From Apus apus (Eukaryota > Chordata > Aves > Apodiformes > Apodidae): a stretch of 64,000 nt of DNA. The DNA lies in NCBI RefSeq assembly GCF_020740795.1, contig NC_067301.1, positions 1,612,001 through 1,676,000 on the forward strand, read 5' to 3'. The translations under genes were made by a program, and so were the position numbers. The number at the start of each line of letters is the position of its first letter. The stretch's first letter is position 1. The notes beneath the pieces were generated by a model. The model was given only the letters and a program-made list of their open reading frames with translations. It did not search any database and was not told the origin of the DNA. This document shows positions 4,076 through 35,945 of the stretch, one piece after another.

Positions 4076-7000
4076 ATGGCGGCGGCACCGGCCGGGCCGG
4101 CACAGCTGGTGCGCAGCGGGCAGAAGGACGAGCTGTACCGGAGCGGGCTGCGGAGCGGGGCCGGCACCGCGCTGCACGGGCTGGCGGGTAATGCCTCCCG
4201 CGGGGGGGGGGGGGGGGTTCTCGACCCCAAAGCCCTGCCGAAGGGGTGGGAGGGCGGGGCTGCGGGGTCCGCGGGTCCCCCCTGCCCCCCGGGTCCCCCT
4301 TGCCCCCCGGGTCACCTCGCGGCTCCCGGGTCGGGTGGCGGAGCTGGGCCGATCCGTCGCGGGGGCGTTAACCCCGCGCTGGAAACTCTGGGAGGATTCC
4401 CGGGGAAGGTTTGGGACAGCGTGAATGTCATGGGAAGTCACGGCAAGGGTCCCATCCCTCAGGTGCCAAGAGGTGGCTGGAATGGAGGAGAGAGGTTGAA
4501 CTGCTGTCGGATGTCGCCTACTTCACCCTTACCACTTTGGCAGGTAACGTGCCTGGTAACTTGATATTTAGCATTTAACTGTGAAAAAGGGCAGCTGGTG
4601 TTGGTGACCAGACTGAGAAGTGGTTTTCTTTAACATGGGGCTTTGTTTTCCTGCTTTGTCCTACAAACGGCTTTTTATTAAATATGAAACCACTTAATTC
4701 TCCAAAGTTTGAGTTGAAATGCAGTTTATCAAGCCAGATTAATGTTCTTTCAAAAGCAAAAAATATTTTTAAAAAAGGGATGTGTGACAGTGTGAAAAAG
4801 CAACCCTGCTTTAACCCTGAAACCATTGCAGATACTGATGCTGCAGATGCTGATGTAAACATACCACTCATCTCATTCAACATAAAAAAAACAAAAGCAC
4901 CTATTTCTGAAACCCCAGAACCTGATGTATCCTGAGTTGAGCAGCCTGTCACCACTGCTCGACCAGACACAGAATGGCCCCATCTCACCAGGCATGTTTT
5001 GTTACGTGTGTTATTTAGGTTATCAGACCCTGGGTGAGGAGTACGTTAACATTGTTCAAGTTGACTCAAGCAAGAAAAGGGTACCTTCACTTCTTCGACG
5101 GGCCCTGTTCATTTCTCTCCATACTGTGCTACCCTACTGCTTAGAAAAGGGATTGCTGCATCTGGAGCACGAGCTGCAGGCAGGAGCTGAGGAGTCCAGA
5201 ACCTCACAGAGCAACCCAGCACTTGGCTTATCCTGTAGGACCTTAGTACGGAACTGGATACAGAAACAAGTTGGGGAGCTGACAGAACAGCAGAAGAAGA
5301 GAGCCTTACAAACTGTGTATGTTCTTAAGCAATGCATACCTTTGCTTCATCGACTACATCTGGCAGTATTCTACATCAGTGGCACTTTTTATCACCTGTC
5401 TAAAAGAATTGCAGGAATCAAGTATGTAAGTGGATGTGTTTCTTGCCTGAAGATGGTGCCCATTGCAGCATTCTGGCCTCTTTTGGGATGCCCTGTGTGT
5501 AAAAGAGATACAGAATTTCACTGTAGCTGAAATTGGTTACACCAATGCAGGGGTTTCAGATCTAGATGATCTTTAAGGTCCCTTCCAACCCAAACCATTC
5601 TGATTCTAAGAGGATATGGCCAGGGTAGACTGGGTGAGAAGGAAATTTTTAATATATGTAGAGGGCTTATGAGTCCCTGTAGTCAAAAAGTTACGGCTAA
5701 TAAATGGTCAGTGGGCTGTCAGGAGTTAATATGTAACACTGCTTAGTCAAGTCTGTGCTACAGATACACAAAAATGAGAAGTGGTTTAATAAATCCATGA
5801 GAAATACTTAAATATAGTTTTGAACAAAAATCAGTACACATTTAGATAGTTCTTTTCTATGTGAGCTATCTTCCCAAAAAACATCAGCCACTGGCCCAGA
5901 AATGCAGAGACAGAAGGCTACTTGACAATTCCCAAGGTCTTTGTGGAAAGGAGGTGTCTGGCTATTTGCTCAGAGCTACATAAAACCAAACTGATGAAAG
6001 CAGCAGTTTGGATGGATGGACAGACAGACAACTGATCCTTACACAAACAATCGTGTAGTCTGAGGTGTATCCAAGACACATTAGACCTGAGAGACAGCAG
6101 GTTGGTAAGTCTTAGTAACATGTCAATTTTTTTTGACAGAAAAACTGTCAAATCAAGAGTTTATTGATACAGGGAGGAGAGATGCATACTTTCATAAAAC
6201 TGCAGTAACAATTCTCTTATTCCTGTGAACTATGTAGCTGCATTTTGGAGGACTGCAAAGAGAAGATAAGAGCATTCGATCAAGTTACAAGATTCTTGGA
6301 ATAATTTCACTCTTCCATCTTCTTCTAACAATTGGTGTTCAGATGTACAGCTTCAAACAGAAGCAGAGAGCAAGGCAGGAATGGAAACTACACCGCAACC
6401 TTGCTCACCAAAGGTACGATGGTTTTTACTTACTAGGAAAGAGCTGGAAGCAATGGTGGGAACGGTAGTAGCTTTTATGAACAGTGACACTTTGACTTAA
6501 GCTAGAACCTGATGGTATTTAATGTCTGATGCATTTCTCACTGCTTTAAATATCTCTTTGCTTTAGGATTGTATTATCAAGTATTTCCTACAAGCAGGCT
6601 AAATGAAATTATCTGTAACTATGTTAATTAGAGATACGACCAAAGAAAAAGCTACGGGGCGCCTCTCCCGCTGCACTTTGTGTTTGGAAGAACGGAGACA
6701 CACAACAGCCACCCCCTGTGGCCACCTCTTCTGCTGGGAATGCATCACCGAGTGGTGTAACACCAGAGTAAGTACAGAAGGACAAATGGAGGCTGCAAGG
6801 AGTATAAATTTCTACTTGAAAATACCAGTCAGCCTACATGTTAAAATAATACCCTTTTTCTCTCAACTAAGGCACCCAAAACCCCCACACAAGAGTTTAC
6901 CAGGACCTATGTATTTTATTAGAATAGAATGACTATGCATTACATAGATGAAGTAAATAAGGTGAGCAATTTTCTGTCCCAGCCATTGAAATGCAACTGG

Positions 7001-8315
7001 ATAAGTGTGGAAGCCAGACATGGAGATCATTCCTTTATCTACAGACCTAGGCTATAAGTCTGACAGCAAAGAAACCAAAGCAATAAAGCTCTGAAGCCTT
7101 CTTCACCTGATTTCCAGTAAAAAAGAATAAATAACTTAGAACTAAACTGAGCTAGGTCTTATGCATGGTATTTTAAACTTGGATTTTGCTCTGTGTTAGT
7201 GAAATACAACAGAATTTTCATCCATTAAGGATTTTATAGACATCATGGAATAACACAGGGCCCATTTATTTCCTTAAAGCAAACAGCAAACCTTACTTAA
7301 AAATAAAATCCTTGCCACAGAGGCTGTGTCTGTGCCATAAATCAGATGTACTACTGCAGCTGTTTTAGAAATGAGTGATGTCATCTACACCATCTACAGC
7401 TGTGGTGGAACAGGATCAAGCAAATTCTCAGTGAATTTTCCTAAGATCCAAAATCAATATAGCCTAAGGATCAATATCAAAGGCTTGTATTTAAATGTTA
7501 GATCTAAGCTGTTAAGTTCTACAGTACATGCCTCATTTGAAAACACAAACTAGAATGCAGTTTGGGATGAGCCACTGCCTTCCTAACACCACCCTGACTC
7601 AAATCAGGAAACATCAAGAGTCACTTCAGATTTGCTTGCAAAGACCTAGCCAGAAGCTGTGGCAGGAACTTAAACCTAGCTCCAGGGAAGGAGTGGTGAC
7701 CTACTGAATTACTCAGATGTGTTTTCCAAGGTTGAGAAAAGAGATGCTTTTCTTATTGGGTAGTCAGACTCATTTAATTAATCCTTATTAAAAAAAAAAA
7801 AAAAAAAAGTTTGCCAAACACAACCCATCCTACCCACCCCTCCAGTGAGTGTTTTCCAGCTTATCAGCAGAACAGTAATTGCATCTTTGCCCTAAAGGCT
7901 TGGTGACTAATTTACTACTCAGAGAACAGTTCAAGGTCCATGGTACAGGATTTTTGTTTCAGATGCAGAGAATTAAGCTTGTTTTTCTTTAACACTGAGA
8001 ACAATTGTTACCACGTTAGTAAGGAGCACCCACATCACCTCAAGTTGCCCCTTAAATGAGGCTAGCTTAGAATGCTTTGCATGGTTAAACTTGCACTACA
8101 AACTGGCCTGAAAAAAAATGTTTTTTGTAATTCTGGATGTTGATTATTTTCTAGAAGTAGCCTAGCAGTTATATTTGGCTTTTTTTTAAAAAAAACTTAT
8201 AAATACAGTAGTTCAGTACATCTAATTTATTGTCTTTTTGTAGACAGAATGCCCACTGTGCAGAGAGAAGTTTCATCCTCAGAAGCTGATCTACCTACGT
8301 CACTATCAACTGTGA
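4076..8315 (+). CDS. PEX10: Peroxisome biogenesis factor 10 (peroxin-10, RING E3 ligase)
   Basis: Coding exons are 4076-4187, 4463-4543, 5019-5425, 6238-6413, 6632-6767 and 8244-8315. All introns are GT-AG, phases agree at every junction, and the total is 984 nt for 327 residues plus TGA, against 326 recalled for human. The N-terminus ([20 protein letters not shown]) and blocks such as [17 protein letters not shown] and [10 protein letters not shown] match PEX10. Residues about 30-245 form the hydrophobic membrane region of PEX2/10/12 proteins. A C3HC4 RING occupies about residues 273-310 (C273, C276, C288, H290, C293, C296, C307, C310), with the motif [12 protein letters not shown]. In the family it sits in the peroxisomal membrane, pairs with PEX2 and PEX12, and ubiquitinates the PEX5 import receptor for recycling. 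The protein ends LRHYQL, slightly longer than human. Nothing is broken. Confidence 0.97.
4202..4217 (+). repeat. G16 homopolymer in PEX10 intron 1
   Basis: An uninterrupted run of 16 G lies 14 bases after the exon 1 splice donor. It is prone to slippage and sequencing error and can form a G-quadruplex in the nascent transcript. Confidence 0.9.
4273..4308 (+). repeat. 18-bp C-rich tandem repeat (two copies) in PEX10 intron 1
   Basis: The unit GGGTCCCCCCTGCCCCCC (4273-4290) is repeated with one change at 4291-4308, and a partial third copy starts at 4309. On the minus strand this gives closely spaced G5-G6 runs, a strong potential quadruplex. Confidence 0.85.
5545..5612 (+). mobile_element. 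CR1 LINE 3' tail fragment
   Basis: Sequence ending in AAGGTCCCTTCCAACCCAAA followed by CCATTCTGATTCTAAG has the stereotyped 3' end of avian CR1 retrotransposons. Only the last 60-70 bases are present, in sense orientation inside PEX10 intron 3. CR1 copies are usually 5'-truncated like this. Confidence 0.8.
6768..8243 (+). other. PEX10 intron 5
   Basis: This intron separates the RING exon from the last coding exon. It holds an A19 run at 7790-7808 and otherwise plain AT-rich sequence. No further exon or recognisable repeat family is visible. Confidence 0.8.
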
Positions 8316-10045: not shown

Positions 10046-12815
10046 CTAGCTGGCAAAGGTCTTCCCCACATCTTCTTTCCCTTTGTATTTCCTCTTGCCA
10101 TGTGTGAAGGGGATATATCTGTACTTGATCATGTGCTGTAGAGAGAAAAGACCCATTTTTGAGGCAAAAATGTTTCATAAGACACATTGTAAATTACAAA
10201 GTCTTCTAAAAAGACAGTTCTCCAGTATTGTAAAGGGAATGAACTAGCTAATCATAGAGCAGTTTACATCTAAATAGGGGTATGAGCCCAATCTTATAAA
10301 TCTCAAATTCAGGTTTACCAACTTATACAGTACAGGGAAGATTACTGACTGGGGGAATCAAAGGCAACTGGAGACAGCATAGCGGTATTAAATGATTACT
10401 ATCCTTTAATGTTTGATTTACAACTTTGAATAACGATACCTATACAAAATTCTCAATGTCTGGGGAAAAAAACTGGTACTATTTAAAAAATGTTCTGAAT
10501 GACTTGCCTATGTTCCTCCCAAGAAGTTCTCACCAACTTGTGAGAACATCCCTTTTTGGCCGTCAGAGAACCTACAAGACCTCTTCATTAAAAATAGCCA
10601 CAGTTAACTGAAGGAAGTGGATGAGAAATTTCAAGACTTGTCCTGTATAAAAAACAGACACTGAATTCTAAGATCAAAACCTTCTGAAATCAAGCGTAAC
10701 AGTTTCTAACGTAGTGAATGAAGATTTCTTTTACCAAGTATTTTTGCCTCCTATTGCCAATATTTGCTCAAAGTTGCAAACACTTGAACACATTCAAGTG
10801 CTGCACATTTGCAGCGTTGGGCAAATACTGAACTAATGTTCAAGTGTTGGTTGTTAAAGTTCCACCAGTAAAGAAGTGTGTGCAATACATTTAATACCTG
10901 TGAAGTGTTCAACTGGATGGACAGTTTCAAACAATACTGTGACATCAAAACTGCCACTAGCTATTCTTCACAAGTTACCTTGATCTGCCTCTTCATAGTG
11001 ATACAAAAGAGCATAATAAAGTACATCACAAGGATTGGCCAAAAAACAGGAACGTTGAAAGCCTCAAAGAATGTGCAGGCCATAGCAACCAGGATTCCTT
11101 TAGTGGCAGAGTGCCTTAAAAAGAATAATAAAAATTAATCCTTCAACCCCAGCTACCACTAATTTTATGCAAATAATTATATTCTTTAAAATCAGAGCAT
11201 GGGCAGATGGATCCACTCACCAGAATTTAAACTCTGGGAGCCTTCTAATGAAAGGACGAAATTCTTCATTTTGCCTTGTAGGTAAGGAAGGACCATCATC
11301 TGAAAAATAAAAAAAAGAACCCCACACAAACCCCTTTATACTAATTTGCCACACAATTCAGAGTCCACTTTTTATTTTTAGGTTATTTAAAAAAAAACTT
11401 TCACTGCTACACAAAGACTCCAGTTAGAGTGGCTATTCTAACGTAACTTAACACTGATTTCCCAAAACCAAAACCAGAAGTAAGTGCCAGGTCACTTAAG
11501 TTACTATTGGGAGAACTTAAGTCACATAAACCTTCTTTCAAAATATAGAAAACTAATACAATATGGAATAAGTTCAAGTCCTGAAAAAAAAAAAAAGGAT
11601 AAATTTCATAGTAACTCCTGATGTCAAGTTTTATAGATTTTTTAATATAATGTCATGTTAAATATAACGTCATGTTAAAATTGCACATCTTTACACCACT
11701 GTATGAGACAAAAAGAGCTGAAAGTTTGTCTAAGTACAAAATTATCACAAAATTAACTACTTATCATACCTGAATCCTCCATTAAAGAGGGGTCTACCTT
11801 TGGCGACAAGAAAGCTATGAAGAGGTTTAGATGATAGATTCCCAAGGCATATGTCACAATGTACCAACCCTGAAGCAGGAAGGGAAAAAGAGCCAAGATT
11901 AGTGTCTTCCTGAAAACCATTTTCAGATACTGTTTTTTTCAACAAGATCAAACTACCTGTTTTTTGCTTCTTTGAGAAGTGCTTCCTACATCCTCACATT
12001 AACACAAGTGCTAAATGATACTGCATGCAATTGCAAAGTGAAACCATACTTCAAAAACACTCAGCACAAAAAAAAGGAACAGTAATGATATCTGAACTAC
12101 TTCAGTAGTAAAAGCAGCTTTTCTTACCTGCAGTAAATAAACTCTAATCATGTAGATAAAACTCAGACCCAAAGTTACAATCCATCGCACCGCAGTGTAT
12201 GGAGTAGATTTGTCTAACCAGGACTGGTAGATCTAGGAACAAATACAAAGTGTGCATCTGTAAAATACATATTGCACAAAAATAAGAAAAAGTAAACACT
12301 TGTGAAGAGTATTTTGGGGAGTAACCTGAAACATTTGTACTCTTTCTTACAATTAAATGGAATTAAATAAACTTTGAAAAGCTACTTTGACAGAAGCAAA
12401 AACAATTTCTTAGCACTTGGAGCATCGTAAAGCAATTTAAATGTTCAATATTTTATACAAGTTTACTTTCCTTAAGATGAATCTGTTAAGAAATCTCAAG
12501 TCACTCATTTTTGACAGTAACAATATATATTCAGCTGTGCAATGTCACATACACACACATCAAATAATCCATTAAGCTATGTATTCTAATCTTTTTAATC
12601 TATTTTTAAAATACTTCAAAAGAAATACTTTGTGTAGATTTTCGTATTTAATCCAAAAAGTAAAAGTTTAAGAAGCTACATTGAGACCTGCTTCTAAGGA
12701 GTCAGAAAAAAACCCTACAGAAAACCAACCTGTCCCAGTCTTGAGAAAAATCTATAGACCACAGAAGGTTTTCCATGAACAGACTCGCCAATGCTGTCCC
12801 CTTCTGACATGGTTG
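10046..12815 (-). CDS. RER1: Protein RER1, Golgi-to-ER retrieval receptor
   Basis: In transcript order the coding exons are 12810-12730 (the exon itself begins at 12815), 12232-12128, 11869-11770, 11299-11221, 11114-10979 and 10135-10046. Splice sites are GT-AG and phases match. The total is 591 nt, 196 residues plus TAG, the length recalled for human RER1. The product starts [20 protein letters not shown] and ends [11 protein letters not shown], nearly identical to mammals. Four hydrophobic segments are visible at about residues 41-58, 63-82, 126-143 and 147-163, the usual topology with both ends cytosolic. The family returns membrane proteins and unassembled subunits from the cis-Golgi to the ER through COPI. 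The gene is tail-to-tail with PEX10 and its 5' end shares a CpG island with MORN1. No defect is seen. Confidence 0.97.
10779..10848. repeat. Inverted repeats in RER1 intron 5
   Basis: An 11-base arm AACACTTGAAC (10779-10789) is perfectly complemented by GTTCAAGTGTT (10838-10848). Within it, CACTTGAA (10781-10788) and TTCAAGTG (10793-10800) form a second tight stem with a 4-base loop. It lies about 130-200 bases from the exon 5 donor on the RER1 transcript. Confidence 0.7.
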
Positions 12816-15796
12816 CTGTGGAAACAACACATGATACACAGGTAACATTTGAAATAAAAATCTAAGCTCAGTGAAACTATACAGTCTATTATCTGACTCA
12901 GCATTTACACACAACACTCTTTTGAATTGGCCAAACTATTTTTAATGAAGGACTCAAGAAGGGACATTTATTAAAAAATAAATTAATTTCCAAAATAAAC
13001 TGTCAAGAAAGCAATGAACAGGGTATTTTTTAAAAAGGCAAGACAGGATCGAATCCATTTTAGGGAAAGGGGGGAAAAAGTCCATACAGAATGCAGGAAT
13101 GAGTCTTGTGAGACATCTTCACCTTGGTAAGACAGGAGCTGAGTTATAACATGTAAGCATTGAGATATGAACTGCAGCAACACCCTCCTGTCACCTCAGT
13201 TTCTAAAGGCAAAGAACAAAACCAAAATAAATATATTTTTATAAAAGGTGCCTCAGATTTTTAAATACTGAGTAACTAAAAAGTGAAGAAGTTTAAGTTC
13301 AGAACCCTGTACACCAGTGGTTACAGACAAAGTACCTATACCAAAACACTGCCCATTTCTACAATTATTCAAGGAGTTCTGCCTCTAGAACATGAAGAAC
13401 TCAGTAGACAGAGGAAAAAATTTATGCATGAGCAAAATTGTGTTGTGAAAGAGCCAGGATTCTGAACTCAGGTAAAAAAAATTGAACCATGTGAATTATT
13501 TTTAGTACATGCTTCTGCCACCAATTTAAGATCTTTTTTCTTTTCAGTTAAGCTCAACTTCCAGATATAAAGCAAACAAAATAAAAGAGATTCTAAACAG
13601 AAACTTTTCTGCCACATCACCAGAAGCAATCTCTGACATTACTTCCTGGAGTCCTCATCTGTGGGTGGGACCACATAACTCTGGGATAGTGGGAATACTT
13701 TCTGCCCTATAATAACACCTAGAGAGACTCAGATGATAATATGAAACATTAATAAATCAGAAAAATGTAAATTATCTTAGATGCTGCAATACAGTGACTG
13801 CTGCAAACAACAATTTGACACCAAGGACAATATGTGGAGGCACAGAACTTTAAAGTTGTATATTTCATCCGTAAAGAGATGAAAACTATATCCAAATAAT
13901 TAGTAAGTCAAAAGGAGCAATATCACACTTCAAAAGATAGGGGGATTAATTATGAGGCTTCAGGGGCTACAGTCCTCTTTAATTCAAGCTACAGCTAAAA
14001 AAGGAAAAATAAACAAATATAAACTCTTACAATATATAAATTTTTTCATTACAGGCAAATGGAAACAATTGTTCTTCCCATTCACCCAGCATTATTACCT
14101 AAGCACAGTTCTGGGCTTTGTTTTTTTTTAAATGTCCTGAAGTAAAAAGCCATAACAAAAATATATGCAATTTATTGATCAGATAGCAATTCTTTGAAGA
14201 TCACAAAGATAAAAACTCTCATATTCTCAAAATTAATTTTAGAGATAGCAAATATGAGCTATAAGGAGAACAATACAATCTTGTAAATGTTAACCTGTGC
14301 AGATGAGGTGAAGAATGATGTGTGTAAGGCTACTTTATGATGGAGCAGGTGTTCTGCTTGGTGTAAAAAATGACATTATATGTGATTATGTGGGATTGTT
14401 TATCCTACATACAGTTCTTCCACAGCAGACTGAGAAATACAACCAGCTAACAGTCAGTGCTCCTGAGAAGAAAGCTCTCAAGAGCTCAGTTTAAGTAGCA
14501 CTGACTGAAGTCTATCACATGACATAGCTTAGACTTTATTATTTCTCATCCCTTTAAAACATCTACTGAAAGAATATCTGTAATTGGGCTATTATCAAGA
14601 AAAGCAGTCTTTAGCACTTCTTTGAAGGTAGTTTACAGTTAAGAACACAAGTCAGATCTCATTGGTTTAAGGGAACAGTTAAATCTAAACAGTGGCAATC
14701 CCTCTTTCATAATGTAACACAAGACTTTACTGTTTGGCATAATATCATAATGAGTTATGATAACCCTTCAGCCATTTCAGCAAAGCCAACACTCTGGAAG
14801 ACATAAAGATTAACATAATAATAATAATTCAATACTTTGCTACTAGCAAATATGGACTGGTACTAGAACTAACCCATATTAAAACATTTTCCTCTGCTAG
14901 AAAATACCAACTAGGGGAAAGCATGACCTCCAACAATTATGCTTTTTACCCCAATTGTTATGGCAATAGCATTACAAATACCACTGCATCACTGACTTCT
15001 TAAGTGACAGGGCCTAGGGCAGTAAAACGTGTTTAACTTAAGGTTCACATCACACATACAGAGGTGGAGAGTTTTCAGGCAACCCTCTGATCACAACACA
15101 GATTTTTCTTAAATTTAAAATACAAATTAAGCAAAATTAACTAGCAAAACCACATTACTGCTCATACAAGCTTCCTTGTCTCACAGAGGGCATTAATGTG
15201 AGGAGCAAGGCACTAAAGTGATTTATTAACAACTGAGTGAACAGACAAATACACGAAATGAACCCGTTTGTTGTGCGAACTGCGGGGTTTTGTGTCTTGG
15301 TTGGTTGTTATGTTTTTAAGCCTAAAAAAAAGGTATCCTTTGGCTTTATCCATGGCAAGAGGAGCCTGGTCTGTCAGCTCAGCCCCTGCGCTGGGGACCC
15401 CCGGGCCTCGCCCCCTCAGCCCCGCCCCAGGCCCAGGCTGCGGGACAGGAGCAGCACCAGGCGCTCGGGAGGCAGGAAAGGCGCAGGAAGGCTGGCACCG
15501 CTCTGCACGGAGCCCAGAGGGAGAAGCCCCGGAGGCAGGGGCCGGACCCGCTGAGGTGAGGAGGGCCCAGGAGCAGCAGCAGGACAGGGAAGGCCCCGCG
15601 GAGGGTGCCCAGCAGCCCCGGCAGGCCGTGCTGGGGAGCGGAGGCAGCGCCGCACAGCGCGGCCCGCACAGCGCCCAGGCCGCGGCGGGGGTCGCCCAGC
15701 CCGGCCAAGCCCCCCGTTCTCCCGGAGAGGCTCCAGGCGCCCTCCCGCCCGGGGCCGCCCCCGCCCCGCTCCGGCCGCGGGGCCGCAGCTACTCAC
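12816..15796 (-). other. RER1: RER1 intron 1
   Basis: The region between the start-codon exon and the CpG-island first exon is AT-rich and has no recognisable gene or repeat family. The short open frames in it are chance. Confidence 0.7.
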
Positions 15797-16380
15797 AGAC
15801 GGCCGAGCCGGGTCCTTCCTTCCGCTCCGCCCCCCGCTTCCACAGAGCCCAATATGGCGGCACCGGCGGGGAGAGACCTGCTTCCGCTACCGGGGCAAGA
15901 GGGGCGGGGGAAGGGCTCGGTACTGCGGGGACGGGCGGCGGTTGCCGCTGGGGAACCGGCTGGGGAACCGCAGCCTGGGCCCGGCGCTGCGGGCGGGACG
16001 GGGCGGGCACCGGGGGGCACCGGGGCGCGTTACGCGGCCTTGAGCGGCTGCGCATGCGCGGGCCCGCGCCACCGCCCTCCGGGGCGGCTCGCCCCGCCCC
16101 CCGCTGCTGCCCAGCCAATCAGCGCGGAGAGGGGGCGGCGGCGCGCGCGGCCCGCGCGGCTGAAGGCGGCGGGCGCTGAGGGGGCTGCGGGCTCGGCGGG
16201 CTCGGCCTCCCTGGCTTCTCTCCCTTCTCTCACTTCCCGCCTTCCCGGGCACTCCCGCTGCCGCCTCAGCCTCGGCCCTCACGCTGAGGGGGCGAGAACG
16301 AGTCTCCTACCACCGCCAAGTTCGGCCTCCCGTTGAGGGGAAGAGCCGCTGAGCCCGCGCTCCTGCGTGCAGGCTGATGT
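15370..16380. promoter_or_regulatory. CpG island, divergent promoter of RER1 (-) and MORN1 (+)
   Basis: This kilobase of very GC-rich, CpG-dense DNA holds the presumed RER1 first exon and faces MORN1 on the other side. A CCAAT box in the context GCCAATCAG is at 16114-16122. A YY1-like CAATATGGCGGC is at 15850-15861, the kind of motif found at housekeeping starts. No TATA box is visible. Long overlapping frames on both strands here are compositional artefacts. Confidence 0.75.
15797..15870 (-). other. RER1: RER1 non-coding first exon (predicted)
   Basis: On the minus strand, CCGTCT ends at 15797 and is followed by GTGAGTAGC, a near-consensus splice donor. It lies inside the CpG island upstream of the exon that opens at 12815. 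The first coding exon carries only five bases of 5' UTR before the ATG, so an upstream exon is required. The 5' boundary is a guess from the promoter motifs. Confidence 0.6.
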
Positions 16381-17536
16381 AAATACAAGCGCTTTTCCTC
16401 TCACGGGTTTGTTTTCTGGTTTCATGCGCAGGTTGTGCAGCCGCTTTGGCTTCTGGCTGTTTCTGTGTAGTCTGTAGCGCTCATCATGAGCTTCAGGCAC
16501 TGAAGAGCCTGGGTTCCCATTACAATGTGAATGTAAATAGCAAGCAAAGTAATATATGTGTCTTCATATAAATGTTGTTTATGCCGGAGTTTAAAAATAG
16601 GTATCCTTGAGTGCAAATAACGCTTTTGTGTTGCTAGGTTTTAAGCATCCAACCTCGTGTTTCCGTATTGTTTGAGTGATTTTAGTTGTCTTTTTACCCG
16701 GTGTGCCTGCAGGCCTCAGGTGAGGCTCCTGAGGGGAGCTGGGGCCTGTTGGCTGCGCTCAGGGCCAGAGCATAAATGGAGGGAGCCTGCCACAGGACTT
16801 CTAGTTTCCTGTTTGCAGTTGTTAGCTTGCTTGTCTTGTTTGGGTTTTTTTTTGTTTGTTTGTTTTTAATAGCGTCGTTTGTGTTATTTAAACCTTTTGT
16901 ATGACGTAAGGTGGAACAAGAACGAAAACGGATCCTGTTTTTCACACAGTATGGTAAATGCTTGTAATCTGTAAAACTGGCATCGCTGTTGAGCTTACAG
17001 GCTGAAAGTAGGGTCCTTGACTTCAAGAGTTCTAAAAACTGTGCTTCTCTGCTATTAGAGCCAATAGGGAAAAAATTAATGGATTTAGGATTTCTGCCTT
17101 GTATCTACTTCATAAATTCACTTGGGGTCAATGTTTACAGTCTGTTTTTTCAGGCTTTGACACAGTTTTTGAATGAGTACATACCATCCAAAAGCTGTTG
17201 ACTATGAAATTCAAGTACTACTAACCATTCCTTAACCATAAGAACACATACTATGAATCTTTTCTTTTTAACGTATCTCTGTCAATTTTAAAGACTAAAA
17301 GCACTGTGATACATAGATTTAAAATAGTGAGCACCGTTTATAGTCTTCATTAGACACGATTAATAGTGAAAAAAGTAGTTGCTATAAACTTGTAGGCTTT
17401 TTGAATGTTTTTTATTCATGCTCTATAAGTAAAATATCACTTATTGGTGAACCCTAAATTTATTTAAAAAATAAGCCATGTTTTAAAGATCTACTGTTTC
17501 TTTCTCTATTTAACTTTTCCACTTATTTGGTTCAAG
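16381..17536. other. Expected site of MORN1 first exons; none recognised
   Basis: The first MORN exons would be expected here, encoding the GYGVYVYPNSFFRYEGEW-like segment recalled from human. I find no open stretch with the alternating YEGEW / HGHG pattern on the plus strand. Some exons may be deleted, diverged or lost to an assembly gap. Confidence 0.45.
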
Positions 17537-17642
17537 GGAACACACTCTGGTCAGTTTGTGTTTGGGAAGCTCCATGATCACAAAATATTGCAATATTAAG
17601 ATGATGGGAAATATGAAGGAGAGTTCTGTGGAGTGAGAAAAG
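17537..17642 (+). pseudogene. MORN1: MORN1 relic exon A, in-frame stop
   Basis: The acceptor TTCAAG and donor GTAAGT bound 106 nt. Translation gives GNTHSGQFVFGKLHDHK, then ILQY, a TAA stop at 17,597-17,599, then DDGKYEGEFCGVRKG. Human MORN1 as I recall it reads SGDTFSGQFVLGEPQGYG followed by VMEYKAGGCYEGEVSHGM, so the two align along their whole length. The stop replaces a lysine codon. The glycines expected after KLH (HGHG-type) read D and K, consistent with G-to-A changes, and one residue is missing in the GEF-GVRKG turn. Confidence 0.8.
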
Positions 17643-20600
17643 GTAAGTTAGGCTTTTTGAGCAAGCTTTCTTTAGAGTTTACTCTGTCAAGACTGAACAG
17701 ACCTGTTTGTGCTACATAAATAAAATAATCTAGTTATTTTTCAAAGATGGCTTTTGGTCTACTGAAAGCCAGGAAACTAAGCTCTTGTTCTCACTTTATC
17801 TCGAAGAAAATACGTGCAAGTGCTGTTGTGCGGTTTTTTTCTTTATAACCCAAACACTGTTAAAAAAAAAATGTGTCGGTTTAATAGCTTCTCACTTCTG
17901 AAGACCTTGAAGAGAGGATGTTTTAAGTATAGTTGGTACGCGTGTGCACCCACAGTTTTGTACCACTGGGTGTCTCTCTAGCACCTGTTTTGAGATTGAA
18001 TTAGGGAATTCTTCAGGCTTACACTTGCTCAGTGGCTGGGCTGCCTCTAGGTTGTAAGCATTTAGTACTGTATTGATTTACTCTAGATATGTGCTCAAAA
18101 GTGACACATTTGTTGAAGTTTATATTGTATGGTTGAAGTTTGATACTGTTGAAGTTTGTTTTTTATGGTCAGATGTCCTGGTGAGTGTCAAACTTCAGGT
18201 ATTAATGTTGAATTTGTCTGTCTTTTATCTTCAGTTTTAACTGTAATCATGTCAGGGGTAGTTTTCTAGATCAATCTTTTGCAAGTGATAAATTCTCAGT
18301 AAGTGGACGCTGTCAGTTAATAGAATCTTGTATTCTGTGAACCTTCAGAGATTCTAGTCCATTAAATGTCTAATAAACAAGCAATAATTATAACTATATT
18401 AACTGAGGAGTCAGTTGACAAAAAATGCTGATTTATATACTGCTTAACAATAAAATTGATTTCACATTGGGTAAAAAGGTGGTCAAGTGATGCAAGATAA
18501 AAACTACAACTGAATGCTAGGGAATGTGTAATAAAACAGCCCCTGAAAGCTGCTGATTTAGAAAAAAAATAATAACCACTCTAGTGACCTGTGGTGGATT
18601 GTCTGGTTTTAGTGGGTTTGTATGTGCATGCATTTCAAAATGACAGAAACCTATGACATGTAAATTAAGTTTGCAGAGGTTAATGAAGCAAAACACTCAT
18701 TTTCTTCATGCAAATGTTTCCTTTCCATGATTTCTCATTTCTGGCTGCTGCCTAAGTCCCAGTAAGCAGATGCTGTGTTCCATTCTGTCCCTGTTGCTAC
18801 TTCTTTGTGTGTTTTGGCTGTGTTTAGTTTGTCTTCTTTCCCAGAGGAAGGCCTGCTGTTTGATACACCTGTTAACCACATTAAACAGGTGGCAAGCCTT
18901 ATGGGCTTCTTCACCTGCAGGCTTTGGTTCCCCTACCCCCCCAGAATCCGTTTGGATTACCTGTTGAGAGAATCGTAGTTTCAGTTCTGATGCAAATGAT
19001 TTAAATTACTGGAATTTTATTTGCTCAGAATTACACTGCCTACTAGTGGATAACACAAAATTTGATGAGGCAGACAAGTTATGTGTAGAGACAGGCAAGT
19101 TTGAATTTGAAATAAACAGAATTACAATAAAAAATGTAATGGTCACTAATTGATAAATGAATTAATTTATCCCTTCATTAATTGACTGGAAATTGCTTCC
19201 TGAAATAAAGTGGTAAGTATTATGACCCATTTTTTACATATTTTTCTATATTTGTAAACTGTGACTTTGAACAGCTTACCCTGCCACACAATGTTGGGAG
19301 TAACTGACATGAAAAATGTCAATTCCTGAATAAAAACTGACAAAGTTTATATCCACTGAAGGTAGTATTTGAAAGTCTTGCTTAGTAAGAGACTACCCCG
19401 AGTGAAGCTACATGTGAATTTCTGTAGTTAACCTGCTTTAGTAGGCTGTTGCAGAATTAATATAATATGAAATTATTACTGTTCGTGTACTAAATGTTCT
19501 AACTGTTATTACCCATAACAGTTAATTGTGGCTTAAATGAATTCCATATCAACACATTTACCTGAGAGTGCAGAACCAATCCACAATTACATCGTGCAGT
19601 TAGCAGAATAAATTCCTTATTACTGATTCTTAGGATAGGATTTCTGTGGATGATACCTTAACGACTTTGCCTTCACCTGTTCCTCTTCTTCATGAACTTT
19701 ATTTCTGTTTTGGTCTCTATTAGTAGATTGCAGTGTCTTAGTGTCTGCTGCATTGCATGTCTCTGAATCACAGGAAATGGAGTACCTTACGAAAACTCCA
19801 GGTTTTTGTTGCTTTAAAGCGGAATTTTCTGTTCTAGTTTAAAAAGCAAACCAAGCACAAACAAAAAAACCTCACAGCATAATGGAGCCCATCACTGGAA
19901 GCTTGTACCTTTTTCTTTTTCTCTGTTTCCTGTTTCCCTTTGTTTGTGTACTAACTGGTAGCTCTTTTTCTGGAGGCCCCCATGTCACTCTGGCTGTACA
20001 CACCTTTGTTTCTCTGCATAAATGTGTGATGTATAGATAGTGCTTATGTGGACGTCAGCATTTCCAAACCTTACATGTGTTGCATTGCTAAGCAACTTTT
20101 AGCAACACTTATCTCTCGTCCTTATGCCATCTGGAAAAGAGGATTAGACAAGGAAATGTGCCAGAGAGAGACAAAGGCAAATCTAAGAAAGTGGTGGCTT
20201 AATTACTGAAGAGAATGAGTGACATTAATAGTAGGCAATCATAAGATTTGATTGAAAGCAGGAACAATGCCTTTACAGGTAGTGATAAGGAACCACCAAG
20301 AAAGGCTGCATATTTTATACCCCCTGTCCTATTTCCTCCTCTGGAGGAAGCAGCACACAACCAAATCCCACTGTGTTTACATATGATGATGCCAAATGAA
20401 GGCCACTATGATTTCAGTCCATAGTTTTGATAGCGCACTGTAACTGGAATTCTTTTTCTAGACCACCTTCCATTTGTTATGTACATGCAGAGGTGTAACT
20501 AGCTGACTGCTGTTTTGAAGGTCTCTTCCACTGAATAGAGAAGACTGGGAAAATGCCAGTGGAGCTTGAAGCTTGTGTACATTGGAATTAGCAAGAGTGC

Positions 20601-22001
20601 TGCTGTCACTGGGATAGCTGCATCGTGTGCTCTAAAATTATGGAATAGAGCAAAGCAAGCAGCATCAGAAGCAGATTTCCAAAGATCTGCTTTGTCTCTG
20701 CTTTTATCTTCCATCTTGCATCTATAATTGCTAAAGGTGCAAACAAAGAGCTAGAATTTTAGCCACTATATCCCTCTGGAGTTTCAACTGGGTTCAGACA
20801 CCTTTTAGAGTTATAGTAGCACTTTATTCGGTACCTCTGCTGTTTCACATGGAAAGCCAGATACCCTACTTAATAGAACAATTATTACTTTAGATTTTAA
20901 ATATTCTCTAATACCTTATGTACTCTAACATGAAAGAAATGAATTCTGTCTGATAGCTAAACAGGATTTAGGACCATGTGACATCTGTTACTGAGTATTA
21001 CTTCCCATACCTGAACTTTTGACTGTACTTTGACCATTACTTGATTATTTCCTTATATGTGTCAACTCTAAACTCTTCCAATAATAGGGGAGCAGTTCAG
21101 GCTAACTTCCAGTACCAGTTCTATGGTTCAGTATGTTTTTTTATACATATTTTGGTCTAAAAGTGCATGCTACAGTGTACAATACTATTCTCTCACATCT
21201 GAAACTGATACCAGTGTTCCTGGCTCTGACCTTCCCTGTCCTGTCAGCAAATACCTGTGAAGTATCTGACAAATTTTCTATCCTCCCCTGGTATACACCA
21301 CAAAGAGGAATTGGTTCACTCTGCTATCACTTAATATTAGTGAAATTGAGGCTGTAAATTAATCATCTCAAGATTATACTCTAATGAGTAGGAAATGGTA
21401 CACTAGAAAAACTGGATGCTCATCATGACGTAACACTAAGTCACACAATTACGTGTGCAAGTTTAATGTCACTAGAAACTAATTAGCCTATACCTAAGCC
21501 TCTGTGGTATTTGGCTTTGCAGCCTTAGGAATCTTTAAACTTTTACGTAAAGGGTGTATCTTGGCTGAAATACAGTCCAGATTTAAATAATGAAAGCTTT
21601 TTGGAATGGAGTTTTGTACACTATTTCACTTTTCACAATCTTTAAAAAGCAGAATAATGTTCAATTCTGTAGGTGACAAAGCAGTTATTCATTATTGCCA
21701 TGTAATTTAATGCAATGTAATATATGAACTGAAGGACTTCACATAATAGTATCCCACAGTAACAAACCTCGGGCAAGAAATGTTTGATTCTCCCCCTTTT
21801 CCCCTTGAGAGGAGTGCCACATAATCCATGGTTGTTGTGTGGTCTCCTATTCAACTTTTCACACAAATGTTGGAAGGGCATTTATAAAAAGCCTTGAGGA
21901 CCACCCACTTTGCTATTGAAAACTGGCAGAAATAATCCCTTCTTTATAATTTAGATGTGGTGTTGTCGAAATTTAAATTCCGCATGTATTTCTGTTTAAA
22001 G
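17643..22001 (+). other. MORN1 interior, no further exon recognised
   Basis: About 4.4 kb separates relic exons A and B. Roughly 60 residues of MORN repeats present in the recalled human protein should lie here, but I see no open MORN-like segment. A short array of GTTGAAGTTT units (three copies, 18,113-18,165) is the only local repeat noticed. Confidence 0.45.
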
Positions 22002-22096
22002 GGGCAGTGGAGAAATGACACTCAAAGAACGGGGCGCTGTAGTTAATTGTTCTGGTGACATCTGTGATGGACTGTGGATCAATGGCTACCCTGCTG
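22002..22096 (+). pseudogene. MORN1: MORN1 relic exon B, frameshifted
   Basis: The acceptor TTTAAAG and donor GTACGT bound 95 nt. One frame opens GQWRND, matching human GQWHSD. The next frame reads KERGAVVNCSGDICDGLWIN then GYPA, matching human GLGSMAHCSG...GLWINGHPA. The two blocks sit in different frames, and the exon is 2 nt shorter than the 97 nt the human alignment predicts. Read in the first frame it hits a stop (TAA) within 45 nt. The identity of the block DGLWINGYPA makes the assignment strong. Confidence 0.82.
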
Positions 22097-24867
22097 GTAC
22101 GTACATTCATTATGCTCTCCAGTTATTAACAACTCTTTGCCATAATGCTTTAGTTGTCCTTCTTTTGATTAATATGATCTGACTATAGTGTTTAGCATCC
22201 TCTGAGTACTCACTTGTAGAACCTAGAGTTCTCTGGAGCAAGGGGGATAGCTATCTGAGACCTTTTCTGAAGGGAGGGAGCTCATTCAAATTACATGGAG
22301 AACTACAGTGAGGTGTGGAGTGTTCTGGTAATGGGTTTTTATTTTTGCAGTGAGGGAGAGGTCTTTAGTTTTAATAGTGTGCATTTTTAGCTTAAAAGTG
22401 AAAGTATTTTGGAATTAAAAAGTTGGAAAGGTAGCAAAAGAAACAAACTGTGTGCATGCATGGTACGCATGTGTGTAAGAGTAATCCCAGTTAGTTTAAA
22501 TTGTGCTGTTGGAAATAGTAAAGAATTGCTCAGCAGGTTATAATTTGTTAAGCACAGAGCAGAAATTAATCCCATCATAATGCAAAGATATGGCTTAGTA
22601 GAAAGCTTTTCTAATCCAGTTGCCTTGTGCATGAGGGGACTGTTACACTTTTGACACAATGTAGTAGTTCCAACTTGAATGCAGCTAGTCAGGAGATGCT
22701 TGTAATTTAATTTTTGTGTTGCCTCACAGCATATATGCATGTATTGTTGGTGTCAAGCAGCAAAACATTTGGAATGGAACTTGGAAGAGCAGATCTGTGC
22801 CCATCTTAATAATGTTTGCATGTCAGAATCTCTACTTCAGGATGCTAACACTCTAAAAATGTAATATTTAATTAAAGAATCAGAATAATATCATTCACCA
22901 GATTGCTTTATTTCTAACTTTAGTATTAGATGCAATACTAGGTCATGTTCTCAGAACCCAGAAAGAAAATGTTTCTTTTTAGAAGCATTTCCTGTAAAGG
23001 AATCAGTTTTTAGTAGCTATCGTAATTCTCACAGTAAAGTGCTTCTTTAATCCAGTCAAAGTTGGTAGTAATCAATATTCATGGCTGTGTTCAAACCCTA
23101 TAAAATGTTGTGATGGTCTGTTTCATGATTAGTTAGCAGATGTTAACTTTAACAGGCCCTTTTTTCTGGCACTGTAAGCTGAACAATAAGGAATTGAATA
23201 GGTCTTGAAGAAATCTCTGCACAATCATGGAAGTATTCTCTTCAGATTACTATAAGGATATATTTGAAGAGAGAAAATTTGTTCTGCTCCTGTTCATTGC
23301 GTACTTAGAGGACTTAATTTTCACTTTTCTCAGCAATGCAATCATTTACATTCTGTATTAAGAAAGCATGATATTCCTGTTTATCACTTAAACTTAATTG
23401 TTTTTTAAATCTTTTTAAAATGCACTTTTGCAGAAGTCAAGGTTATTTGTAGGACTTCACTTTAGATGTCTAGATAAATATTTTAGGCAGAACAATAGCT
23501 TGGCTTTTGTGCAGAAAATGCCTTCATTACAAGGAATAAATGTGTATCTTTGTTCCACCCTTCTTGAATAAAAAGTAGAGTACATGTGTTTTATATGCTG
23601 GATTAAAATCTGTACCTGTAACTGTAAGAGATAGTTAATACAGATTCTTGACATACTAACTATTTGTTTCTCTTTTGATAATCAGCTGTGAGTAGTCATG
23701 GATTGAGGATCTGGTCTGGCATCAGAAACTATCAAAATGCATCAAGTTCTGCTACCAACTTAATTAAGTTAATTGAACAAACTGAGAGGAAAACAGTTAA
23801 CTTCTGTGTACGTAGTGTGGGAAGAGCTGAACTCATTCTAAATTTCACATTATTAATGTGTATGCAGTAATCTAAACCTGGGTAGTTAATATGCCAACTT
23901 CATAAATTACATCAAATGTGCAAGTATTATACTCTAAAAATAGTAGTAAATACCTTTTTTTATAGTCTGAGATGTTTTTGTGACTGTCATACTGACTTTT
24001 ATAATGTAGTACTCAGAACAAGTTGTTTGTTGCCCTCCCCTCCCCCTAATGGGTGGCTTCTATTCAAGGAAAGATTCTCTAATAAAAAAAATGCAGCAAG
24101 CTCTGCCTTCAACAACCAGGGCCATAAAAATCACCCCTCTAAATACTGATTTGCAATCCAAAATTAATAATTGATTTATGAAGTATTGTTAAATCCACTA
24201 GAGTCCCTGGAAACGGATTAATGTTCTAGTACTTCTAAGAATCCTAGGACCTTTAAGTCTCACTGAAATTTGTTTAAAAATCTTACCCAGCATTTGGTTT
24301 CTCTTTATATTTTTATAGCAACAGTTTTATTTTTTTTCCCTAGCATGGATAATATCAGATGGCAGAACTGTAATTATTCAACAATAATGATTTGAAGTAT
24401 TGCACCAGATGAAACAAACTACAGTGAAATATTTCTTTGAAGCTGTGAAACTTGATTCTTTGTTTATTAGGGAACTCACAGCTTTAAGTTTGTGCAGCAC
24501 TTTAGCAGAAATTGGGAAACACAAGGAGTAGCCTAAGTGGATGCTACATCCCCATTTGTCTACTCCGGTTTGACAAAATCTAATAGAGGTAATTTTCAGT
24601 GTTCTGCTTAATGTATGTTTTCTGCTGTATACCCAGTTGTAAATTTAATACACTGAATACCTAATGGCTGTTGTGGTGAATTTATTCTTATATTTGGACT
24701 TCTAATTAAGATTTTAAAACCTATGAGCACAAACAAACACTGTCAAAACTATTTTCTTCTACTGGATTTGAGTGCATAATCCCTCTTTTGACGTATGTTG
24801 CATCTGGGAACTGGGCACTGAAATCTGCCATTTCTGTCATTAGTAGCTCTGGATTTGCACTGGCTAG

Positions 24868-24951
24868 TTTACCAGTCCCTAAGGGAGATGGAGCCAGAAT
24901 CTGGATCTGACACCATAACTGGAGCAGGAGATGCTTCAAGCAGCCAGTGTG
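24868..24951 (+). pseudogene. Candidate MORN1 exon C
   Basis: An AG acceptor at 24,866-24,867 and a GTGAGT donor bound 84 open nt reading YQSLREMEPESGSDTITGAG then DASSSQC. Acceptor phase fits the donor of exon B, and donor phase fits the acceptor of the last exon, which would restore GQYVPLV. ESG and the following ITGAG loosely match a segment of human MORN1 (GEIAKSESGRVLQISAG) recalled from memory. The polypyrimidine tract is poor, so this is tentative. Confidence 0.35.
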
Positions 24952-29636: not shown

Positions 29637-32600
29637 GTAGCCTGAGGATCATCAGAGACTTCTTTGAAGACTTGTTAGTAATTTCCATTACAGACAAATA
29701 TTCTGCTGAAAAAAAGGTTCTGACTGTACCCTCTCTTTCCTGCAGGCAGTGATAAATAAAGAATTTCTGCAAAATTAGATAATTTAAATGTGGCACTTTA
29801 TAGGCACTCCTGGATGAGGCAGAGGGAAAGTGTAGCTATAATTAGGTTTCTCCTCTGTTTTTTAATTTAGTTTTGTTACTCTCTGGCCTGCATTTCAGCT
29901 AGCAGTTTCTGCCTTTTTTTTTTTTTAGCTGATTTATATTTATTTTAGTTTTGAACACTTTATTTGGAATTTTATGTGAACTTATCACTGCAGTAAAGAA
30001 GCCTCACCCCTCCACATATAATGTGGGAAAGAACTACTAGATTTTGGGCTTATATAAATTTGTTATTTAAGGAGAAATACGTTTTCATTTTCAGTATAAA
30101 TTTGGTATATAAACTGTCTGCCATAACTTTATTTTCTTAACAGTTTCTCTTTTACTTCTCTTGAAGTTTGAAAAGACACTTAACTTGGGCATAGCAATGA
30201 GTCTGTTGGAGCCCACCTGTGGGCATTTCACTGATGTGCAGCCCCTCCTGATAATCACTGCTTCCCATGGATTTCTCCATGCCATTCTTAAAATTAATTA
30301 AGATATTCATTAATATTGATTAAAAAAAATATTCTATAGTAGTAGGAAATTGGGGGCTAGGGCAGAAGGAAGGGAACTCCTGTTTGTACTAGAATGTGTA
30401 TAGAAGCTGCTAACCTGGCTCACCTTTTAGACCAGTGTTAGCACTAGTACACTGGGAGCCTCACAGATGAATCTAAGAAGAAGTAATGATGAGAAGCATA
30501 CAACATGGCAACAAAGTGATGATTAACCTGTTTGCTGTTTTGCAATTAGAAACGTTGGGCTAAACATGCTGATTCTGTGAGACTTGCACAGGGTGCTGGA
30601 GATGTTGCACTAATTGTGATAAAAGGAGTCCCAGCATGTGTCTAGCACATCCACGTTAACTCAATTTAACAAGACATCAATTTGAAGTTGGAATCTACCT
30701 GTACAAGTCCTTATCTGCTTTGCTTTGTTGCTACTTCTGTAGCCTATGATATGTTCCCCAGGTAATTGTTACCTGTAAAGTAAATTATTGGGTGGTAAAA
30801 GGAATTAAACTTCTGTGTAAAGTTCTTACTTTGAGTTTATCTAGATCCTAAATTCCTGTATGACCATTATCTTGTCAACAAAACCCACAAAGGACAACCT
30901 ACACAAAATTTTAGATTTAGTTTGTATTTTTACTGAAGATTCTTTTTCCTAATGCCTATTAAGCTTTTATGTTCTCATCAAATTCAATTTTATGATATAG
31001 TACTTTTAATGAGCAGAATTTCTTTGTTGTCATCTGTTCTGCTTGTATTTTCAGTCTATATAAAACAAAGCTGTGGTTCCAAGCATTATGAAAAAAATTT
31101 ATTATTTTATCATTATTATTTGTTTCCCCTCTTACCTACGCAGAAGTAGAAGCCACTTATGAAAATGTAGATATTGATATAATAACGACCCTTTGAGTAA
31201 ACTGTTCATTATTAGAGTTCAACCAAATCCAGAAACTTCCAGCATACTGTATTTTGACCACTAGAATATTTCCCTTCTTCAAATAATGCAATAAAATACT
31301 TTTGGATTTTGAATTTGACTGTATAAAAAGATCATTCTTAGTCGTGGTAAGAGTGGTGTCCATTTTGATGCTAAGCTTAAAGTAAATAAAAACCAAAACA
31401 TAGATGTATAAAATGCTTTCTTGGAGTCTTTTTTTTTTTTTTGCCCTGAGGTTTGTTTTGTTTTAAACTTTCAGATTGGCTGCTTGGCATTTTGCTGAAA
31501 AGAAAAGCCAAGCTCACACATGGATGATTGCCAGATACTCCAGACCCTATTTTGGTTAAATTACAGTACCCACGTTTTGGTAACAAAGCACATTGATTTT
31601 ATATTCAAAAAGATTTTTATATTTAGTCTGTTAACCTTTTGTAATTCCCACCCACAGCTTTAAACTGCAGAACATTTTGATGCTAATTGTTGTCAGGAGG
31701 GTATCTGCCATGGCCCCATGGCAATTTAAATCCATTGAATTGTAATGCAGGTGCTGGTAATTGCAGAACTGGGTTTGTCTGGCTGCAGCATGTATGTCTC
31801 AAACAATTATTTTTAAATTGGATTTGAGAAGATTTAAAAAAAAATAAATTCTGTATTTGAAGATAACCTTACATCATATTTAAATGAAATAAAAATATTG
31901 GGTGAATTTTTCCTCTCACTTTCAAGGCAGTTTTATGTGTTTGCAGTTTTAGAACAGTCTTCACTGTGGCAGATTCTGAGGTTCAGCAGCCATTGTGTGG
32001 CTTTTAAAATGCCTGTTAGTCCCTTGGTTTTGGAAGTTCATAGGAATTTTAGTCCAATAGTTCTTGAAAATATGGTTGCTTGGTATAATATCATAATCCA
32101 GTGAATACAACATGGGGGCAGGAGGGAAGAAGTTTTGTGTTCTGACCCCCAAATGGTTTGGGTGGATTTGGACAGATCACTTCCTTCTGGTCTTGCTTTT
32201 CTCAGTATAAAATAATGACATTGCTTTTCTTTTACACATCTCAAACCATTGCATCAAATGCTAACAGAAATCTGTCCTGTAATCTTAATGTGCAGATCTG
32301 TATGTCTTGTCTGGCCACAGGACACTGAATGTTCTGCCTTTTACCAGCATCTTCATTATATTCGTCAGATCTACGTAGAGCAGAGTTAATGATTATGCAA
32401 TAGCACTTTGTTTGGAATACACAACATGCTGAAGTGCTGCCTGGGAAAACAGATACAGAGTAGTCATTACTTTTAATAAATTATTATAATTTTAGTGGAT
32501 TTGATGAACCTTCCCTCTGAGTGAAGCCTTTCCACAGAATGCTTTAATATGGATAAAAGTAATTTTCATGAGAAAAGCCTTTAGTTAACTGAAGTTACTA

Positions 32601-35600
32601 TACAGAGAAGATAAATGTAGGGTCAAAAATAGAAGGGTTTAGTGATATTCACTGTAAGATGTGATTCTTTTTTTCTTTAAAACCACTTGATCTTAGGAAA
32701 TTAATACTGAATTCATATGGAAAAGGTATTCTAACCGTTTAAAGGCAGTGACCAATTGTAGTGGAGAATCCCTGCTGGAAGATGGAGTTCAGGTTCCTGC
32801 CTGAACCCCAGAAGAACTGGTGTCAGGGGTCAAGATGGGCTGGTTTTGGCTCCGTTGCCACTTGCTGCAGAAGCTCTGGTGAGGAGATGTAGCTATGAAA
32901 CTATTGCAATATCTGGTTGTGGTAATAGAGAGATTAACTCAGTGAGCTTGTATTAAGATACAGAAGGCAAGATTCACTGCTCTTTCTTCATGCTTTATAA
33001 CTACTTGTCTGGACATAGTTACAGAAGTTCTAGTTTCTTTTAGAAATAGTTTATTTGGCTTATTTTGAAGCAAAATTGATTAATATTGCAAATACAAGAA
33101 GAAATTCTGTGGAAGTTGTTACCTGATTTGTAGTATTTCACATCTCTTAGTGAATATTCAGATCTAATTGGCTAAAGACTTCAGTGATAAGTAGCTGAGT
33201 GGAGCAGTGCTCTGCCTAGGAGTTACTGCTTCTGCTGAAAGGCTGTTCATTTGATTCTCTTTTTCAGGTCCTGTTGAACATTTATATAATCTGTTCTTAA
33301 ATGATTTAACTAATCTTGTCCAAGGGTCTTTTAAACCAGAGATTTTTTGGGCTTCTGGCAGATAGGTTCATTTCCTTTGCCATCATATGTAACTAAGATA
33401 GTTTTGAACCTGTTGATGTAAATGGGGGCAACTTTTTTATATAAATGTGCATTCTGACTCTTGGTGCTTTCTAATGCATATTTTCTGAATGTGAAAACTT
33501 AAATGCAGCCATTAAGAAGATAATTTTGGGGAGTAAACACTGGTGCTACACGCTTGGAATTCTTCATGACTCAGCCTTCTTGGTTCAGGATTTTGGGGGT
33601 TTGTTTATCCTACAATTATACTGGTGCTAGTAACACTTTTTACTTTTTTCTTAGACTCTGGCAGCCTATCTGTGTGTGGCTTATTTTTATTATAGGTAAT
33701 TTGAACACCATTTTCTAGCACTGGCTGTATTTTTAAAGCAGCACTGAGTTAAATTGACCTCATAGTTTTGCTCTGTGTGTGTTTATAAAACAGGGTTTTG
33801 GTTTAATAGGGTACTTGTTTGGGAATGCTAGTATCTTCCCAGACAGGATTTATGGTGAAAAGGAACAAAACTAAGCAGTGTTAGCAGGCAAGGCATAGAT
33901 TGCCACCAACTGTACTGTTACAGTCATACCTGTGCAATTTGCACCTGGTGGAGCCTTTTCAAAGGACATTGATTTAGCCACTAATGTGCCAGGTGTAAAT
34001 TTCATTCTGGTTGCATTATATTAGATTGATTAGATATTTGTCAAAAAAATTCAGTCAAATGAGGATGGTATCACAGCATTTAGTCTGCTACGAAGATATA
34101 ATGACTATTTGCATGATGTTAATAAACCTTTATATCTGCAACTGTAGAACTACTGCCTTTTCACCCTTACTGAGGCTTGTTCACTGCTAATATTTTTTCT
34201 GGCTTTCCCCAGCTGCCCCCAGCTTCTGGCTGGATGTCCTACACAAGTGATTAGTAGGCTGTAATTGAATTGGCTGTAAAAAGATAACTTGATATTTCAC
34301 TCACAGAGAGGTCAAGCTGCCCTATCTCAAATGGTTGTTATGAAAGTAGTCATCCTGCTGGCATTATCTCTCCAAGGTGGCACATAATCTTTGTCTTGTT
34401 GATAGTAATAATTATTGTAATTGAAATTAACATGAAGAGGGTAATTAAGGAGTGATTCTCTGCATTGAATACTTTAGCTCTACTTTGAAAGCATGTGAAA
34501 CTGGAATTTATAAACCTTAGCAAGTACTTGTCTGGGTAGTGTATTTAATGCCAGGCAAAATACTACCTCATTAACTGTCTAAACCTTCTTGGTACCACAT
34601 CACCAGTAACATGGGACAGCACAAGTACGACTATGGATGTGTAAGATTTCTGAAATGACTAATGGGAAATCCTGTCAGACACCTTGAAACCATTGGTCTT
34701 AAACACCTTCTTTGAACAGCTGCTTACTTTTGAGATTATTTTAGCTAAAGATTGGCATGGAGAATTATTTACTTTGTGTACTTACAACTGTCTTAGAGAA
34801 GGATTACCTGAGGCAGTAACTCTTCTGTAGTTCTAACAGCAATGTCACTTCCTCTTTTTAAAAGACTTTTCACAACTGTAAACATAATAAATAATTCTGC
34901 CATTCCTAGTAAGCCAGGTATGTATTGTTGCTTTTTCATGTGTGTCAGGGTAGGGCTTGTGTCAGACAGAAAACATATTTGCACTAGAAATGTTCATCTC
35001 TCCTTTATTCCCAAAGGGTCAGTGATGTTCCTTCTCTGCACTGGTATAGAAAATAAATTGAATGGGGTCCCCTCCCTTTTTTTAAAACTTGATTTCCCAC
35101 CCCTGATGACAGGTATACTTGCCTTTTGACTACAGTGCACTGTGCAAGGTATCTTCTCAGTGCTAAGCTCTTTCTTTGGATTTGTGTGGCACAATTAATA
35201 ACAATTTTAAAATGGGTTAAATTTAGTTACACAGGAACTTTTTTGAAACTGTTAGTGCATAAAGAACCTGGAGTTATACTGTGAGCAGTGTGGTTCTCAT
35301 TCATTGCCCCAAGAATAAATACTGCTGCTACAGCAAAAGCTAATGGAGGGAAAGATGTTACTTACTGCCCTTGCAGAGGGAAAGACTTAACTTTCATCTT
35401 GCCCTATAATGATAAAGTTATGGCACTGTGGAGATGACTGCAGCATTTGCAACTGGAAATGTCTTACTTTAAGGTATTATAGCTAGGGTGAAGTTTGGCA
35501 GCTAAAATATTATCTTTCACACTCCACCCCACAGAATTGGAGACCAATACTTCCCCTTTGACTGTTGAGTTGTACATTCTGGCTTTAATTTTTTTTTATT

Positions 35601-35859: not shown

Positions 35860-35945
35860 AGCAGAGGCAAAAAGCCAAGTGGCAGGATATCTGCTGAGAA
35901 AGCTGAGAAGATGACAGTCTCACAGGAGAAAATGGAAGACAGCAG
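35860..35945 (+). pseudogene. Candidate MORN1 linker exon with strong splice sites
   Basis: A long T tract ending CCTGTATAG is followed by 86 open nt and a GTATGT donor. The frame reads SRGKKPSGRISAEKAEKMTV then SQEKMEDSR, a charged linker comparable in character to the low-complexity region before the human C-terminus. Its donor phase (2) does not fit the last exon (1), so another exon would be needed between them. It could also belong to an unrelated transcript. Confidence 0.35.

Follow-up and report, generated by a model that had tools for sequence, protein, structure and literature searches.

Remnants of MORN1 in the common swift Apus apus and the probable loss of the gene on the line to birds

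The 64,000-nucleotide stretch of the Apus apus genome analysed here (the window, C21:1612001-1676000) very probably contains part of a unitary pseudogene of MORN1, and the gene probably lost its function in the bird lineage ahead of the split of the sampled orders. That it is a pseudogene follows from the ancestral position of the remnants, the failure to find six of 13 segments of the gene (the one with the start codon included), the presence of two stops and four net 2-nt deletions in the other seven, and the absence of any other copy among the matches of a whole-genome search. An intact MORN1 orthologue is present in crocodilians, turtles, squamates, amphibians, fish and mammals.

Genomic context and copy number

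The MORN1 remnants occupy the ancestral syntenic place of the gene, in the order PEX10, RER1, remnants and SKI, by comparison with the human gene order, in which MORN1 lies between RER1 and SKI with PEX10 alongside. Human protein queries matched PEX10 (4076-8309, plus strand, human residues 1-326) and RER1 (10049-12810, minus strand, human residues 1-196) exon by exon with no stop, except for residue 305 of PEX10 at an exon edge, and these two intact genes thus serve as a control for both the assembly and the method. Some 78-84 kb past the end of the window, the minus strand carries exons for the SKI C-terminus. Long open frames on both strands at 15262-16336, with proline- and arginine-rich translations, probably belong to a CpG island at a common RER1/MORN1 promoter.

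A search of the whole genome (1.10 Gb, 110 contigs) with Alligator MORN1 gave 21 matches with E of 10 or less among the best candidates scored, five of which are remnants in the window (45-73% identity), and no second MORN1 copy was found among them. The other 16 matches (27-51% identity) probably represent other MORN-repeat genes. Open MORN-repeat exons at C17:12253559-12256458 are 47-49% identical to Alligator MORN1 (47% at C17:12256294-12256458), and probably belong to another MORN gene. The Pfam family PF02493 has 11 matches in the genome, none of them on C21, the contig of the window.

Remnants of MORN1 in the window

Alligator MORN1 was divided into 13 segments, and one profile per segment was run against the window. 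Seven segments survive, in order and on the plus strand, spanning 33 kb (six recognised by profile and one through bird models alone). R1 (segment e4) lies at 17537-17642 and is described below. R2 (e8, 22002-22096) has both its acceptor AG and its donor GTACGT, and has 7 nt (22020-22026) in place of three codons, a net 2-nt deletion. R3 (e10, 23686-23801) is an open frame with an acceptor AG and an unclear donor. R4 (e11, 24764-24951) has 7 nt (24884-24890) for three codons and a donor GTGAGT, and the sequence preceding it (24730-24763) contains no AG. R5 (e13, 35860-35945) is intact, with AG and GTATGT in place, and all 27 of its residues match the bird majority. R6 (e14, 46482-46555) has AG and GTAAAT, and a TAA at 46504-46506; it was recognised through bird models only (E down to 6e-7), as the profile of non-bird sequences scores 1.8 bits on it versus 2.7 bits in the reversed window. 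R7 (e15, 50770-50905) has an acceptor AG, and has 10 nt in place of four codons and 7 nt in place of three. The disabling lesions of the seven remnants are therefore two stops (R1 and R6) and four net 2-nt deletions (R2, R4 and two in R7). The remnants keep intron positions and splice sites over 33 kb, so they are not a processed copy. The intactness of R5 and the 11 splice sites still recognisable across the seven remnants count against a pseudogene.

Segments e1_2 (with the start codon), e3, e5, e6_7, e9 and e12 were not found in the window, where their best profile score was 3.0 bits (up to 2.7 bits in the reversed window); nor did searches with bird proteins recover them at an E of 1 or less among the matches listed on the plus strand beyond 15000, and no further MORN1 remnant was found in 130 kb of flanking sequence outside the window. 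Assembly gaps were rejected as a hiding place for the inner missing segments, because the window contains no N and those segments would sit between recovered exons. Human MORN1 as the sole query detects two clear pieces, and bird and crocodilian proteins detect all seven; the nearest MORN1 matches of the window are to birds. Other matches were discarded: that at 32537-32644 to the eagle and Limosa models is model-specific sequence with stops, unlike the MORN1 of other vertebrates, and those at 21957-21998 and 47969-48034 derive from intron sequence included in models. No Rfam family scored above its threshold within the 64-kb window. A second cluster of open frames, overlapping one another and present on both strands, is located at 48913-49557, inside the region of the remnants.

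The exon at 17537-17642

The identification of 17537-17642 as a MORN1 exon in the first-pass annotation of this DNA is borne out by the match of the Pluvialis MORN1 model to 17528-17704 (E = 7e-22, with the 64-kb window searched) and by a profile of the exon from 17 vertebrates, which scores 38.3 bits there and no more than 0.7 bits when the window is reversed; the match is not due to chance. Both splice sites, which the annotation had described as retained, can be read directly in the sequence (AG|GGAACA...AAG|GTAAGT), and the TAA at 17597-17599 falls in the MORN1 frame. Its column contains lysine in all three birds that have the exon, in both turtles and in Xenopus, in agreement with the proposal that the stop took the place of a lysine codon; it contains arginine in both crocodilians, alanine in two lizards and glycine in Ambystoma.

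After KLH, the window reads D-H-K where all eight non-birds have glycine at both of the glycine positions, and the reading in the three birds that have the exon is G-H-K, G-H-N and G-H-K. The second glycine was thus lost in the common past of these birds and the first only in the window. The annotation had correctly read the two positions as D and K; only the D is private to the window, the glycine at the K site having long been lost in birds. In addition, the exon differs from the three birds by a tyrosine-to-histidine change, a second glycine-to-aspartate change, valine and lysine close to its end, and a 3-nt deletion. With X written at the stop, the R1 peptide matches no Pfam family at an E of 1 or less, whereas Alligator MORN1 contains seven MORN stretches.

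A sequencing or assembly error as the source of the stop, in a MORN1 that still works, is hardly credible: the TAA is known from the assembled sequence, but it is one of six separate disabling lesions, accompanied by six segments that were not found, in a window with no N and with intact neighbours. Relaxed constraint rather than a single error, as first proposed from this exon, is right but understates the condition of the gene as a whole: of its 13 segments, six escaped detection, and the seven others carry the stops and deletions listed above.

MORN1 in birds and other vertebrates

A protein search with Alligator MORN1 gave 758 matches with E no higher than 0.001 (7988 candidates scored), and the 120 matches listed include MORN1 relatives in crocodilians, turtles, squamates, tuatara, amphibians, fish, sharks and mammals. 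No named bird is among these 120, and fragments of bird MORN1 may be among the other 638. An intact bird MORN1 would be expected near the top of the list, because crocodilians are the closest living relatives of birds. A composite query with residues of the window found 28 proteins from 31 candidates, and birds account for eight of these proteins (Theristicus, Morus, Pluvialis, Alca, Morphnus, Aquila, Limosa and Chlamydotis). These bird MORN1 records are only fragments or 'LOW QUALITY' models (four of the eight are so labelled); models can skip exons, and those labelled LOW QUALITY may have been patched by the annotator.

Segments e1_2, e5, e9 and e12 are missing from the window and from all eight bird models, and are present in 8, 8, 8 and 7, respectively, of eight chosen non-birds. 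Absence of a segment from any single model proves little, because some of the eight non-bird controls lack e10, e11, e12, e13 or e14. The two best bird models have two Pfam MORN stretches, compared with the seven of Alligator. The Gavialis MORN1 model has dissimilar sequence in place of e10, which is present in Alligator; this discrepancy is probably an annotation slip.

Shared and private lesions

Two frameshifts of the window are shared with other birds. At R4, both eagle models read LDLHWLIYQSLREI(E/Q)PESGSD, which is an alternative frame of the first half followed by the ancestral frame of the second half, and the window at 24849-24947 has the same frame offset, making the same switch from alternative to ancestral frame; the R4 offset is therefore shared with the eagles. 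Morus, Alca and Chlamydotis have PKGEEPES at this site, one residue fewer than crocodilians, which suggests that an annotator patched these models over the same shift. At R7, Pluvialis and Chlamydotis continue after KLL in the shifted frame of the window (7 nt for three codons). Because these two frameshifts are common to the window and other birds, and the same four segments are absent from all eight bird models, MORN1 was probably dead before the sampled orders split.

The other lesions appear private to the window, with the proviso in each case that LOW QUALITY models could be patched: the R1 TAA (all three birds that have the exon read lysine), the R2 shift (eight of eight bird models in frame), the R6 TAA (another residue in six of six birds, Morphnus in part only) and the first R7 shift of 10 nt for four codons (five of five birds in frame). 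The TAA at 17597-17599 is thus probably a late, private hit. The decay that the first-pass annotation read from it is real, but the stop came late, to a gene that, judging by other birds, had been broken before.

Several independent losses of MORN1 within birds, in place of one before the sampled orders split, would account for the many private lesions and for the set of retained segments varying between bird models, half of which are labelled LOW QUALITY; this explanation is unlikely, given that the same four segments are missing everywhere in the bird sample and that the R4 offset of both eagles and the R7 offset of Pluvialis and Chlamydotis are those of the window. Even less probable is that birds kept a shortened, working MORN1 and that the loss is recent in Apus apus alone or in some species. 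Open frames over R1, R2, R5 and R6 in several bird models, together with the intactness of R5 and of most splice sites, would fit a shortened protein, but none of the eight bird models has the start-codon segment, several birds have frameshifts in common, and the seven Pfam MORN stretches of Alligator are reduced to two in the two best bird models, and R1 of the window matches none. For Apus apus itself, a shortened working protein is excluded by the two stops and four shifts.

In the preferred sequence of events, a single loss of MORN1 function on the bird line would have preceded the split of the sampled orders; the shared damage (four segments and the frameshifts of R4 and the second R7 site) would have come first, and the private damage, including the TAA at 17597, afterwards. 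The remains would now drift as intron DNA does. Neutral change is slow in birds, which may be why exons and splice sites are still recognisable.

Rates of change and the intact exon

With turtle as the third sequence, changes found only in the window outnumber those found only in Alligator by 40 to 14 (two-sided binomial P = 5e-4; the two stop columns skipped). By exon, the counts are 15 versus 1 in R1 and R2 together and 1 versus 3 in R5. The ratio of 40 to 14 by itself proves little, in view of the lack of a control gene and the slow rates of change of crocodilians. Outside R5, 27 of 174 residues of the window depart from the bird majority (the two stops are counted here as changes), as against none of the 27 residues of R5 (Fisher P = 0.03, uncorrected, R5 being one of eight pieces). 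R7c was excluded from both comparisons and R2a from that with the bird majority.

In the residue comparison with birds, for which bird pieces below 45% identity were set aside as absent, the window differs from seven birds at 7 of 189 residues in R5, 20 of 184 in R2b and 23 of 102 in R1. The other birds differ among themselves at 41 of 540 residues in R5, not far from the 79 of 621 in R2b, so the conservation of R5 may be due to luck, and its intactness may be no more than that. There is a slim chance that MORN1 was dead by the time the bird orders split and that R5 (35860-35945) has since been under selection in another role, such as a regulatory element or a noncoding-RNA exon.

Comparison with known gene losses

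The fate of MORN1 is an ordinary event, a lost gene leaving a fossil. Since MORN1 has been kept from sharks to mammals and crocodilians, its decay is a further, traceable entry among the genes that birds have dispensed with, and a natural experiment on the role of a little-studied protein. It also illustrates that a stop codon with the look of recent damage may have arisen late, in a gene long dead.

The literature yielded no description of a loss of MORN1 in birds, judged from titles and abstract openings among the matches listed, subscription journals excluded; PMC5005375 mentions MORN1 in passing. Surveys of genes missing from birds (PMC4290089, PMC12954441) likewise describe, in their available text, vertebrate genes absent in birds and present in non-avian relatives; unlike MORN1, these concern syntenic clusters and dot chromosomes, and PMC12954441 describes no pseudogenes left from lost bird genes. 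The losses of the ciliary genes WDR93 and CFAP46 (PMC10445033) resemble that of MORN1 in leaving exon remnants between intact neighbours, with shared and private lesions that order the events, but differ in falling in separate bird groups, so far as the available text describes them. None of PMC10445033, PMC4290089 and PMC12954441 contains the word 'MORN' in its main text, as available.

MORN1 is thus a new case of a kind already known, avian unitary pseudogenes, for which STK33 is the closest precedent. The available part of PMC4509753 describes STK33 as a unitary pseudogene in neognath birds that is intact and expressed in palaeognaths. The present case differs in the gene and in its sampling (nine birds, eight of them as proteins only, versus 28 neognaths); in both, a vertebrate-wide gene is left in birds as remnants at its old place, with missing exons, indels and stops.
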